From positions 1 to 5,219 of the forward strand of contig JASHYD010000422.1 in NCBI GenBank assembly GCA_030043175.1: a stretch of 5,219 nucleotides of DNA. Reading direction: 5' to 3'. This stretch comes from Xanthobacteraceae bacterium (GTDB taxonomy: Bacteria; Pseudomonadota; Alphaproteobacteria; Rhizobiales; Xanthobacteraceae). Both the position numbers and the translations under genes were made by a program. Below, in pieces: positions 825 through 5,219 of the stretch (positions are counted from its first letter, which is position 1; each line of letters opens with the position of its first letter). The notes below the pieces were generated by a model, which ran no database searches, was not told the origin of the DNA, and saw nothing but the letters and a program-made list of their open reading frames with translations.

Positions 825-2488
825 TCACAGGCCGAACACGAACAACATGGTCTGGTTGCGCATTTCGCGCAGTTCCGGCGTCAGCACGTGGCGGGTTTTT
901 GTGATCGGGCTGATTCCGGTGAGGATCGCGACGTATTGCTTGCCGCCGGTCTCGAAGGTCATCGGTGGTGCGTTGAAGCCCGATCCGACATTGATCTTCC
1001 ACAGCTCGGCGAGCGTGGTGTCATCGTAGGCGATGAGTGTTCCGTCGATCAGCCCGGTGAACACGAGGCCGCCGCCGGTGGTCAGCGCGTCGCTGTTGTT
1101 GGGATAGGCAGCGTGGACCGTCTTCTTGAGTCGCCGGTGAATGGATCGACGGCGATCAGATCGGAGCCGTTGCGCTCGATGCTGCGGAACTTCAGGCTGA
1201 AGAAAACGCCCTTCGTGATCGAGTCCCGAGCGTTGCTTCATTGCACGACGACATCGAGGGTATGTACATGAGCCGGGTCTTCGGGCTGTAGGAGGCGGCC
1301 AGTAGTTGTTGCCGCCAGACATTGCTGGGCACACCTTTTTTGTCGGGTCGGCGGGCGTCCAATTCTGCATGCCCGGCCGGTCTTCTGATGATGCCCTTGG
1401 TCCAGTTGACGGCGGCAACATAGGGCTTGGCCAACAAGGGCTGCCCGTTGGCACGCTCGAAAGCATAGAAGAAGCCGTTGCGCGCCGCATGGGCGACCAT
1501 CTTGCGTGGCTGCCCGGCGACCTCGCCATCGATCAGGATATGGCTGCCTTCTTCGTCGTAGTCCCACATGTCACCGGTGGTATATTGGTGGTACCAATTC
1601 ATCTTGCCGGTGTCGGGGTCCCACGAGATCAGGCTGTTGGTGAACAGATTGTCGCCGAGACGGTAATACGGATCGGACCAGGCACCGGATTGCCGGTGCC
1701 CCAAAGGACCTGGTTGGTGGCAATGTCGTAAGAGCCGGTGACCCACATGGCTCCGCCCCCCGTCTGCCAGGCATGTTCCTGTCCTTCCAGGTTTCGCTGC
1801 CGGGCTCGCGGGGGGCCGGGATCACGTATTTGCGCCACACTAGCTTGCCGGTTCTGGCATCAACGGCCAAGATGAAGTCGCGCGTCCCGTTATCGCCGCC
1901 GGCGGCGCCCACGATGATCTTGTCCTTGACGGCCAGAGGTGCCGCTGTGAACGTCAGGTTGGGCTGGCCATCGGCGAGATTGGTCTCCCACGCGATCTTG
2001 CCGGTCTCCTTGTCGGCGGCGATGACACGGGGCGGATAATTCGCGACCGACACGACGACGTTGCCCCACACTGCGGCGCCCCGGTTCGACAGTGGCACTT
2101 TCTACTGACCTGGGTCCATTCGCCACACGATGCGGCCCACTTCTCCTGAGCGGCCATCAATCTTGTAGACGGCGCCCCACAAATCTACGACGTAGAGAAA
2201 TCCATCCTCGGCAAGCGGCGTTGATTGCAAATTCTCATTGGCCGAGGTGCCGCCGATGGCAACCGCGTAGACGATCTTGAGTCCCCTTACATTGCCCCGG
2301 TTGATCTTGTCCGGAGGCGAGTAGCGTTGAGAATCATAGGTGCGATGATTCATGAGCCAGTTCTGCGGCTCCTTGTCGGCATTGGCGAGCCGCTCCGGCG
2401 CCACCTCGGCGGCAAAAACGGGCCAACCAGCGACCAGAACGCTGCCGATGAGGAGCGCCTTGCAGCGTGGGTGACGGCCTCTTGTCAT
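825..2488 (-). pseudogene. Broken PQQ-dependent dehydrogenase, methanol/ethanol family
   Basis: The product would be a periplasmic eight-bladed beta-propeller quinoprotein oxidising an alcohol-type substrate with PQQ and a metal ion, passing electrons to a cytochrome c. Translation starts at ATG 2488 after CGGAG. A signal peptide is visible (positive Arg/Lys start, hydrophobic core, cleavage near PVFA-AEV). Reading through the breaks gives about 556 residues, normal for the family. Tryptophan-docking repeats include AADKETGKIAW, AVDARTGKLVW and SWDPDTGKMNW. Active-site landmarks remain: the GGGAMW tryptophan (1743-1745), TGNP asparagine (1689-1691), WDYD (1555-1566) and AARNG arginine. It ends in VFGL. 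Damage: an in-frame TAG at 2102-2104 between DPGQ and KVPLSNRG, and single-base losses near 1774, 1674, 1389, 1375, 1294, 1221 and 1129. The vicinal Cys-Cys of classical methanol dehydrogenase is absent. Substrate cannot be assigned; true pseudogene versus sequence error is open. Confidence 0.88.
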
Positions 2489-2582: not shown

Positions 2583-2635
2583 ACCGAAAAAGAAGGCGGA
2601 TGTCTTTTGCGCCCCTGGGAGGCACACCGCTGCAT

Positions 2636-2661
2636 TGTGCGTCGCTATTGGATCACGCACA
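2636..2661. promoter_or_regulatory. Candidate operator: 7-bp inverted repeat, 12-base spacer
   Basis: TGTGCGT (2636-2642) and ACGCACA (2655-2661) form a perfect dyad with a 12-base spacer, about 92 bases upstream of the plus-strand gene start and immediately before a TTGGCA element. Size and spacing suit a dimeric transcription factor. I do not recognise the regulator, and a 7-bp dyad can arise by chance. Confidence 0.4.
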
Positions 2662-2667
2662 GCGCGC

Positions 2668-2696
2668 TTGGCAGTAGCAGTCAAAGCAGGCATCCT
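2668..2696 (+). promoter_or_regulatory. Weak candidate promoter for the plus-strand pair
   Basis: TTGGCA (2668-2673) matches five of six bases of the sigma-70 -35 consensus. The hexamer CATCCT lies after a 17-base spacer (2691-2696) but matches the -10 consensus at only three of six positions. Placement between the inverted repeat and the start at 2753 is reasonable. A poor -10 box would fit an activator-dependent promoter, but this is a guess. Confidence 0.2.
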
Positions 2697-2752
2697 ATCG
2701 CAAAAAGGTCACTCTCCCGCTGAACGACAATTGACGTGACTGGAGGAACGTC

Positions 2753-3613
2753 ATGCAGTACCGAGCCTCGATTCGAACGATTGTGTTTGCGGCAGCGGCG
2801 TTGTGCATGCCTGTTGCAACGCAAGCCTTCGACGACGCTAAATATCCTGCACTGACGGGCCAGTGGACCAGGGCCATCGTCCGGGGAGCGGTCGGCCAAC
2901 CCCCATTCGATCCGGCCAAGCCACCGGGCCGGGGGCAACAGGCCCCTCTGACGCCCGAATACCAGGCCAAATTCGAGAGCACTCTCGCCGACCGCGCTGC
3001 CAGCGGACTGGGTGACGCGGTGACGACTTGCCTTGCGCCCGGCATGCCAATGCTGATGCAGGCCTATGAACCCATGCAAATCACTGTGTTGCCGGAAACC
3101 ACCTATATCTTGATCGATCATATTCACGAGAGTCATCGAAGAATTTTCACCGATGGGCGCCAGTGGCCCAGAACTGTTCAGCCGACCTTCACCGGCTATA
3201 GCATCGGCAAATGGATCGACGAGGACGGGGATGGACGTTTCGATCTACTCGAAGCCGAAACTCGCTATTTCAAAGGGCCGCGCTTCTTCGACACCAGCGG
3301 CATTCCGTTGCACGAGGATGACGAAAGCGTCATCACGGAGCGGATCTATCTCGACAAGGCGGACCACAACCTCCTTCATGACGAGATCACCGTGACCGAC
3401 CACGCATTGACCCGCCCGTGGACGGTGATGAAGAACTATCGCCGCACCCTCGACCCGTTGGTGGATTGGCCGGAGTACATTTGCAACGAGCAAATTCCAT
3501 TCGTTCATATTGGCGACGAGGTCTACAAAGTCGGTGAGGAGGGCTACCTGATGCCGACCAGAAAGCAACAGCCGCCGCCGGACCTACGGTATTTCGGTCG
3601 ACCCAAGAACTGA
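2753..3613 (+). CDS. Exported protein of unknown function with EF-hand-type loop (paralog 1)
   Basis: A 286-residue secreted, probably periplasmic protein; function not known to me. The start is well supported: GGAGGA at 2742-2747 lies 5 bases before the ATG. Residues 1-25 are a signal peptide ending ATQA, giving a mature FDDAKYP start. Landmarks in order: APLTPEYQAKFE (64-75), Cys93 in CLAPGMP, HIHESHRRIFTDGRQWP (123-139), PTFTGYSIGKWID (144-156), the loop D156-E167 with Asp at 156, 158, 160 and 164, Gly161 and Glu167, then KGPR (174-177), DEIT (210-213), ALTRPWTV (218-225), Cys244 in YICNE, and a C-terminal PPPDLRYF. The 12-residue loop fits the calcium-binding EF-hand consensus. RRIFTDGR, GYSIG-W and TRPWTV resemble motifs I recall from abundant uncharacterised secreted proteins of Acidobacteria and Sphingomonadales, where an EGDTLVVET-like segment replaces the loop. 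It probably forms an operon with the paralog 51 bases downstream. Confidence 0.9.
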   Translation: MQYRASIRTIVFAAAALCMPVATQAFDDAKYPALTGQWTRAIVRGAVGQPPFDPAKPPGRGQQAPLTPEYQAKFESTLADRAASGLGDAVTTCLAPGMPMLMQAYEPMQITVLPETTYILIDHIHESHRRIFTDGRQWPRTVQPTFTGYSIGKWIDEDGDGRFDLLEAETRYFKGPRFFDTSGIPLHEDDESVITERIYLDKADHNLLHDEITVTDHALTRPWTVMKNYRRTLDPLVDWPEYICNEQIPFVHIGDEVYKVGEEGYLMPTRKQQPPPDLRYFGRPKN

Positions 3614-3650
3614 CGTCCGGCCGGCTTTTAGCGACCTTTGATCAGAAACC

Positions 3651-3657
3651 GGAAAGG
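3651..3657 (+). promoter_or_regulatory. Ribosome binding site that fixes the start of paralog 2
   Basis: GGAAAGG lies 7 bases before ATG 3665. This favours 3665 over the in-frame TTG at 3638. It also puts the signal peptide at the very N-terminus and gives a 286-residue product, the same length as paralog 1. Confidence 0.6.
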
Positions 3658-3664
3658 CAAACGC

Positions 3665-4525
3665 ATGCTGTACCGAAGTTCGATCGGCGCCTTAGCGCTG
3701 GCAGTGCTGCTGAGCCTGACAGTTGGCAGCGCGCTTGCTTTCGATGAATCGAAATACCCGGATTGGAAGGGCGCGTGGCGCCGCGTCGCCGTGCCCGGAA
3801 TTACCGGCCAGCCGTCATACGATCCGACAAAGGCCGGCGGGCTGGCTCAGGAGGCACCGCTCACTCCGCAATATCAGGCCATCTTCGAGGCCAACCTCAA
3901 GGACCAGGCTGCAGGCGGACAGGGCACCGACCCGACCTACACGTGCCTCTCGCCCGGCATGCCAAGAGTCATGACCACATTCGACCCGTTCGAAATCGTC
4001 GTGACGCCGCAGATGAGCAATTTCCTGATCCAGCACATCCACGATTCTCGCCGGATTTTCACTGACGGGCGCGACTGGCCAAAGAAAATTGTGCCCACAT
4101 TCGTCGGCTACTCGATCGGTCGATGGATCGACACCGATGGGGACGGCCGCTACGACTTGCTCGAGATAGAGACGCGTGGGTTGAAAGGTCCCCGATCGTA
4201 TGATCCGGCCGGCATTCCGTTTCACGCCGACAATCAAAGTATTTTCAAAGAGCGCGTTTACTCCGATAAGCACGACCCGAACATCCTCTACGACGAGATC
4301 ACGACGATCGACAACGCGTTGACGCGGCCGTGGACAGTCACAAAGAAATATTCTCGTCTACCGAGCAAGCAGCCGGAGTGGGTGGAGGAAGTTTGTGCTG
4401 AAGGCAACGGTGATGTCGAAATCGGTAAGGAGGGATACTTCCTCAGCGGGGACGGCCAGCTCATGCCCACCAAGAAAGACCAGGCGCCACCGGATTTACG
4501 CTATTTCAAACAAACCCAGAATTAA
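3665..4525 (+). CDS. Exported protein of unknown function with EF-hand-type loop (paralog 2)
   Basis: A 286-residue secreted protein, clearly paralogous to the upstream gene and almost co-linear with it. Residues 1-25 form a signal peptide ending in GSALA, giving a mature start FDESKYP (FDDAKYP in paralog 1). Shared blocks: APLTPQYQAIFE (64-75), Cys94 in CLSPGMP, HIHDSRRIFTDGRDWP (124-139), PTFVGYSIGRWID (144-156), KGPR (174-177), DEIT (210-213), ALTRPWTV (218-225), Cys244, PPDLRYF near the C-terminus. The EF-hand-type loop occupies the same residues, D156-E167, with Asp at 156, 158, 160 and 164, Gly161, Tyr163 and Glu167. Over residues 149-171 the two proteins match at 19 of 23 positions; they diverge most around 230-265. 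Two conserved cysteines in the mature protein suggest a periplasmic disulfide. Function is unknown; a metal-binding partner for the flanking quinoproteins is my inference. Confidence 0.9.
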   Translation: MLYRSSIGALALAVLLSLTVGSALAFDESKYPDWKGAWRRVAVPGITGQPSYDPTKAGGLAQEAPLTPQYQAIFEANLKDQAAGGQGTDPTYTCLSPGMPRVMTTFDPFEIVVTPQMSNFLIQHIHDSRRIFTDGRDWPKKIVPTFVGYSIGRWIDTDGDGRYDLLEIETRGLKGPRSYDPAGIPFHADNQSIFKERVYSDKHDPNILYDEITTIDNALTRPWTVTKKYSRLPSKQPEWVEEVCAEGNGDVEIGKEGYFLSGDGQLMPTKKDQAPPDLRYFKQTQN

Positions 4526-4627: not shown

Positions 4628-5219
4628 TCACAGCCCGAACACCCAAACGACGGTGGCGTTGCCCTGCAAGCGCAGTTCCGGTGTGCGATTGACCGTGGCG
4701 CGCGTGTTGCGCGGCGGCGCCGCGCCTGGGCCGGCGCAACACAGGCCGGACGCGATCGCGATGTATTGCTTGCCGTTCACCGCGTAGGTCATGGGCGGCG
4801 CATTGAAGCCTGAGCCCACGTTGATGCGCCACAACTCATCGAGTGTCTGGTCGTCATAGGCAAGCACGGTCCCATCGATCAACGCGGTCACCACGATGCC
4901 GCCCGCGGTCGATAGCACTCCGGCGGAGTTCGGGTAAGGCAGGTCGATGCGTTTCTTAATCTCACCGGATGCCGGATCGACCGCGACCAGGCCACCGCTG
5001 ACGCGGCCGCCGTCGCCGATCGCGCCGCCGAAGAACTTGCCCTTTACGTGGGCGGTGGCGTCGGGTGTCACCTGGCCGCAGCCCTCGTGGGTCGGAACAT
5101 AGAGCATGCTGGTCCGGCGACTGTAGGACGGCGGCCAGAAATTCGTACCACCCGCGATGTCCGGGCAGATGCGGCGTGCGACCTTATCCTGCACCCTATC
5201 GGCGGGTTCGGCGTAAAGC
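4628..5219 (-). CDS. PQQ-dependent dehydrogenase, C-terminal part (runs off window)
   Basis: This is the C-terminal ~196 residues of a second periplasmic quinoprotein of the methanol/ethanol dehydrogenase family. The frame is open to the right edge (LYAEPADRVQDK is readable before the apparent GTG at 5194), so 5194 is not the real start. Visible family features are GGTNFWPPSYS, the blade motif AVDPASGEIKKR, TALIDGTVLAYDD, and the near-invariant ELWRINVGSGFNAPPMTY followed by GKQYIAI. It ends in VFGL, as does the broken copy at 825-2488, and the two C-termini are clearly homologous (LIDGT, AYDD, INVGSGFNAPPMT). It differs by an insertion after IASGL that carries adjacent cysteines (codons 4736-4741). 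It appears intact in the window and converges on the paralog pair. The catalytic Asp region lies outside, so metal preference cannot be read. Confidence 0.9.
   Translation of the reverse strand, partial: LYAEPADRVQDKVARRICPDIAGGTNFWPPSYSRRTSMLYVPTHEGCGQVTPDATAHVKGKFFGGAIGDGGRVSGGLVAVDPASGEIKKRIDLPYPNSAGVLSTAGGIVVTALIDGTVLAYDDQTLDELWRINVGSGFNAPPMTYAVNGKQYIAIASGLCCAGPGAAPPRNTRATVNRTPELRLQGNATVVWVFGL

Follow-up and report, generated by a model that had tools for sequence, protein, structure and literature searches.

The window (the entire 5,219-nt stretch of DNA analysed here) encodes two paralogous proteins, F1 and F2, that carry a conserved acidic loop. Considering all lines of evidence jointly, we think it likely that the loop acts as a structural calcium clip on the turn of a beta-hairpin, and that the family is linked to DUF6152 and is not specially associated with PQQ dehydrogenases.

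F1, F2 and their acidic loop

The open reading frame list places F1 at 2753..3613 of the forward strand, where it encodes 286 amino acids. F2 follows on the same strand at 3665..4525, with its ATG at 3665 and its stop codon ending at 4525; an alternative TTG start at 3638 is possible. The two paralogs are 53% identical (alignment A1), and the region that contains them is 85% identical to the related locus L001 across positions 2608-4525 of the window. Judged by eye, the N-terminus of each protein resembles a signal peptide, from which we infer that both are probably exported. Profile scans against Pfam, NCBIfam and PHROGs placed neither protein in a family; the sole Pfam match of F2 (E value of 0.021) was under the family cut-off and implausible. 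A Pfam and NCBIfam scan of 10 further relatives of F1 and F2 yielded no family and just two sub-threshold Pfam matches. The AlphaFold2 model of F1 has a helix at the N-terminus, and the remainder is predicted to be mostly a beta fold. F1 and F2 are members of a large unnamed, probably exported and beta-rich family, for which our homolog search returned at least 8000 homologs at E<=0.001.

Translation of 3218..3253 (forward strand, residues 156-167 of F1) gave DEDGDGRFDLLE, in agreement with the letters reported in the earlier note on this DNA. The loop has Asp at positions 1, 3, 5 and 9, Gly at position 6, a hydrophobic residue at position 8 and Glu at position 12. Translation of F2 gave an acidic loop as well (DTDGDGRYDLLE, 4130..4165, forward strand), which shows that the loop is not peculiar to F1. 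Compared with L001, the codons of the F1 loop contain two synonymous differences and one non-synonymous difference. The earlier note had asked whether homologs keep the acidic residues, and the close homologs do. Among the best 120 of the homologs, 117 were parsed (P0083, P0085 and P0101 were left out); all 117 carried Asp at position 1, Asp or Asn at position 3, Gly at position 6 and Asp or Asn at position 9, while 116 carried Asp at position 5 and 115 carried Glu at position 12. A stricter EF-hand-like expression matched 109 of the best 120 homologs. The acidic loop is conserved and is not a product of chance.

DSSP applied to the AlphaFold2 model assigned a beta-strand to residues 149-155 (YSIGKWI; 3197..3217, forward strand), which precede the loop. 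A second predicted strand, formed by residues 165-171 (3245..3265, forward strand), follows the loop and includes E167, the residue at EF-hand position 12. With pLDDT values of 97-98 across residues 151-170, the loop looks like the turn of a beta-hairpin in this model. The earlier note had called it a canonical EF-hand loop and had proposed looking for helix-loop-helix geometry, which the model does not contain. The letters of both F1 and F2 satisfy the 12-residue EF-hand loop pattern (D1, D/N3, D/N/S5, G6, E/D12); however, the F1 model lacks flanking helices, its sequence lacks a second such loop, and the acidic residue at position 12 is not kept across the wider family set described below. 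Neither F1 nor F2 drew an EF-hand match at E<=1 from Pfam or NCBIfam; the HMMER filters remove most hits with E values above roughly 0.1. An EF-hand identity was rejected on account of the predicted beta-strand flanks and the dispensable Glu12. What stands of the earlier proposal is a canonical acidic loop that probably binds Ca2+.

Loop states across the family and the calcium reading

Alignment A2 comprised 87 rows: F1, F2, 19 of the best 120 homologs, and 66 frames out of the 83 that the family has in 50 genome loci. Frames shorter than 240 or longer than 309 residues were excluded, as were four very distant ones. A twelve-residue loop was present in 84 of the 87 rows, and the other three had instead the short hairpin WEGDTLV, aligned with a gap of seven residues. 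The earlier note had placed an EGDTLVVET-like segment here in relatives, and this proved correct: as aligned, the canonical acidic loop of these uncharacterised proteins replaces the short EGDTLV hairpin of distant relatives. Intact loops, defined by acidic residues or Asn at positions 1, 3 and 5 together with Gly6, accounted for 67 of the 84. Position 9 was Asp or Glu in 65 of these 67 and another residue in 2, and position 12 was Glu in 50 and S, L, V, M or A in 17. The combination of S or A at position 12 with D at position 9 occurred in ten A2 rows that belong to one clade (7 Gammaproteobacteria, 2 Acidobacteria and 1 Gemmatimonadetes MAG). The other 17 of the 84 loops were decayed, with the length retained and the ligands gone (e.g., DTTGSGKFDALE and ATQKPGEYDTLV).

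In EF-hands, the spacing from the acidic motif to the later ligand is five residues. Passages of Rigden et al. (2011; PMC3123361) report the Dx[DN]xDG motif from a wide range of folds and place an extra acidic ligand at a variable distance from it; in calcium blades the later ligand stands two residues past the motif (Table 1 of the same paper). The F1 loop resembles this motif in having D1-x-[DN]3-x-D5-G6 followed by an acidic residue, and its Dx[DN]xDG part (3218..3244, forward strand; D156, D158, D160, G161 and D164) has calcium-blade spacing. Candidates for the later ligand are found in the F1 sequence at both distances, D164 with two residues between and E167 with five. The family evidence favours D164 over E167, with the caution that Asp9 also occurs, as aligned, in all three rows with the short EGDTLV hairpin, as well as in 13 of the 17 decayed loops, so that its conservation may be structural, serving the turn itself and not ligation. 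Since Glu12 is near-invariant in the F1/F2 clade, an EF-hand-like extra ligand is possible there; Glu167 may contribute in that clade and would be dispensable family-wide.

On the basis of these sequence patterns, the loop probably binds a metal, Ca2+. Asp156, Asp158, Asp160 and Asp164 would hold one Ca2+ together with the Arg162 carbonyl, and the bound ion would pin both strands of the predicted hairpin as a structural clip. The clip would work in a calcium-rich compartment beyond the cytoplasm. According to passages of PMC3123361, homologs often differ in that some have a short loop without the motif and others a longer loop with it; the present family, too, has homologs with a short motif-less loop. 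In contrast to the systems treated there, the family that hosts the F1 and F2 loops has no Pfam entry. The F1 loop is like those of calcium blades, FG-GAP and integrins in lying between two strands with an Asp two residues past the motif, but F1 has one copy of the loop. Neither F1 nor F2 matched the FG-GAP profile at E<=1, and one weak match (L043, E value of 0.12) was obtained among the ten distant relatives scanned.

A different explanation is that the loop is metal-free in the cell, and that an exposed acidic turn is kept for its geometry or for contact with a partner such as DUF6152. The 17 decayed loops, which lost their ligands at unchanged length, agree with this explanation, since their hairpins presumably fold without metal; so does the invariance of Leu11 and the flanking Trp (87 of 87 A2 rows) and of Gly6 (84 of 84 loop-bearing rows). 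However, the Ca2+-ligating positions of Dx[DN]xDG loops are conserved together, and Asn is accepted mainly at position 3, a variation known for this motif from passages of PMC3123361. We consider a metal-free turn unlikely, although it is the stronger of the two rivals to the calcium clip.

A tree of the A2 rows was built without loop columns 156-164. The short, intact and decayed loop states required nine changes on this tree, and decayed loops were intermixed with intact ones within the large clade that contains F1 and F2 (L002, L004, L024 and L034, with L032 on a long branch). The minimum numbers of changes at positions 1, 3, 5, 9 and 12 were 2, 6, 7, 4 and 9, respectively; on this sequence-based tree, the loop ligands have been lost repeatedly in the family. 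Positions 3 and 5 were lost jointly (Fisher p of 1.1e-6, or 2.6e-5 for unique loops) in a plain count that ignores kinship, and a kinship-corrected test cannot reach significance with just five independent pairs. Passages of PMC3123361 argue for repeated convergent origins of the Dx[DN]xDG loop and state that ancestral-like and decayed sequences were indistinguishable in the family examined there. Here, short, intact and decayed loops occur in one alignable hairpin with many paralogs per genome, and gain and loss should therefore be directly studiable, although the tree lacks resolution at its base and gives no sequence of gain and decay for the deepest clades.

The best fold matches were calycin-like barrels, which were weak and near chance level. 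The segment G36-x-W38 (2858..2866, forward strand), invariant in all 87 A2 rows, resembles the first-strand Trp of calycins, in which this residue stacks on an Arg or Lys in the final barrel strand. Candidates for this pair in F1 are W38 and R231; position 231 is R in 72, H in 12 and K in 3 of the 87 rows. F1 differs from the calycin superfamily (lipocalins, FABPs and avidins) in having extra segments, and no sequence link between the F1 family and this superfamily was found. A term search of the PMC3123361 main text gave no hit for lipocalin or calycin.

Quinoprotein genes around the family

The earlier note had proposed a metal-delivery or metal-dependent partner role beside PQQ dehydrogenases. 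Two PQQ alcohol dehydrogenase sequences do flank F1 and F2 in the window. The left one (828..2488, reverse strand) runs through all three minus frames and contains a stop near 2102-2104, and is thus either a gene remnant or a region affected by sequencing indels; the second (4628..5218, reverse strand) is the intact C-terminal part of another such gene and is open at the window end. Across the 50 family loci, a PQQ alcohol dehydrogenase flanked three (L014, L029 and L041), as counted with a flank profile that was built from those matches and may therefore miss distant PQQ proteins. At L029, the PQQ gene is followed by two family genes; the short flanks of L001 (about 1.4 and 0.5 kb) gave no PQQ match.

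The genome G001 (Centralia_MAG_73, Hyphomicrobiales), a single MAG of 6.1 Mb, contains 36 close family paralogs (E below 1e-99) and about 30 PQQ alcohol dehydrogenase matches (34 for TIGR03075, 30 of which were used for adjacency). A family match was found in 1 of 60 searched relatives of G001, indicating that the expansion is local. Under a simple uniform expectation, with contig ends disregarded, the observed and expected family-PQQ adjacencies in G001 were 2 and 0.77 within 1 kb, 3 and 1.45 within 3 kb, and 3 and 3.75 within 10 kb, respectively, which is near chance. PF01011 proteins were present in all 18 searched genomes (5 to 51 matches each) compared with 4 of 14 controls. The co-occurrence suggested in the earlier note thus holds by genome, in that these genomes are quinoprotein-rich, but not by gene neighbourhood, and the evidence at hand does not support a role as a PQQ dehydrogenase accessory. 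It is very improbable that the loop is a true EF-hand-type site, with its ligand at position 12, that binds or delivers Ca2+ or a lanthanide for adjacent quinoproteins: F1 does fit every loop position including E12, which is kept in the close homologs, and quinoprotein genes accompany the family in the window, at L029 and by genome, but the flanks of the loop are beta-strands, E12 is lost in 17 of the 67 intact loops, linkage is rare among the loci and near expectation in G001, and frameshifts interrupt the PQQ gene on the left side of the window.

Linkage to DUF6152

The recurrent neighbour of the family is DUF6152 (PF19649), not a quinoprotein. It was located directly upstream of a family gene or array in 16 of the 17 genomes other than G001, the seventeenth being cut by a contig end. 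In G001, DUF6152 was directly upstream at 2 of 26 family loci, and 3 of the 36 family genes were within 1 kb of it compared with 0.18 expected (10 of the 11 DUF6152 places were used). DUF6152 was missing at 7 of the 24 loci outside G001 and was not found in the window; upstream at L001 there is a distant family relative. Most of the expanded G001 paralogs and the F1-F2 pair stand without DUF6152, and the linkage holds in the other sampled genomes. The family domain was also carried by 14 of 16 long DUF6152 frames. DUF6152 is both a gene neighbour and a natural fusion partner of F1-family members, but it has a predicted OB fold, unlike the F1 family. Adjacency and fusion now tie a large family that lacks any Pfam or NCBIfam model to DUF6152, and this tie is the more interesting lead.

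Tentatively, and with more doubt than for the calcium clip, we suggest that the family and DUF6152 form a previously undescribed exported system of two parts, which some uncultured bacteria carry in dozens of copies and which is sometimes fused into a single protein. The calcium-clipped beta-barrel would bind a ligand, perhaps a hydrophobic one. The OB-fold partner has an invariant Pro-His and a mature end that may start with His-His; it would carry a second metal site, possibly for copper, and would hand on or modify the ligand.

In DUF6152 proteins (L036, L037, L043-L050 and others), His-His directly follows a signal-peptide-like segment, and a Pro-His is invariant; the His-His is a possible N-terminal metal site. 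The natural single-frame fusions of DUF6152 and family relatives (L051-L056 and L058-L064) are of the short-hairpin kind wherever the segment is readable. Two Gammaproteobacteria MAGs under 3 Mb, G013 and G018, gave 73 and 75 DUF6152 matches, respectively. DUF6152 was adjacent to a family relative in two of the three annotated sphingomonad plasmid regions examined. On a Novosphingobium humi plasmid (L070, 5779-7067), a family relative and DUF6152 overlap by 4 bp, and a Croceibacterium plasmid (L071, 4994-9193) carries a row of two DUF6152 genes, a family relative and a TonB receptor.
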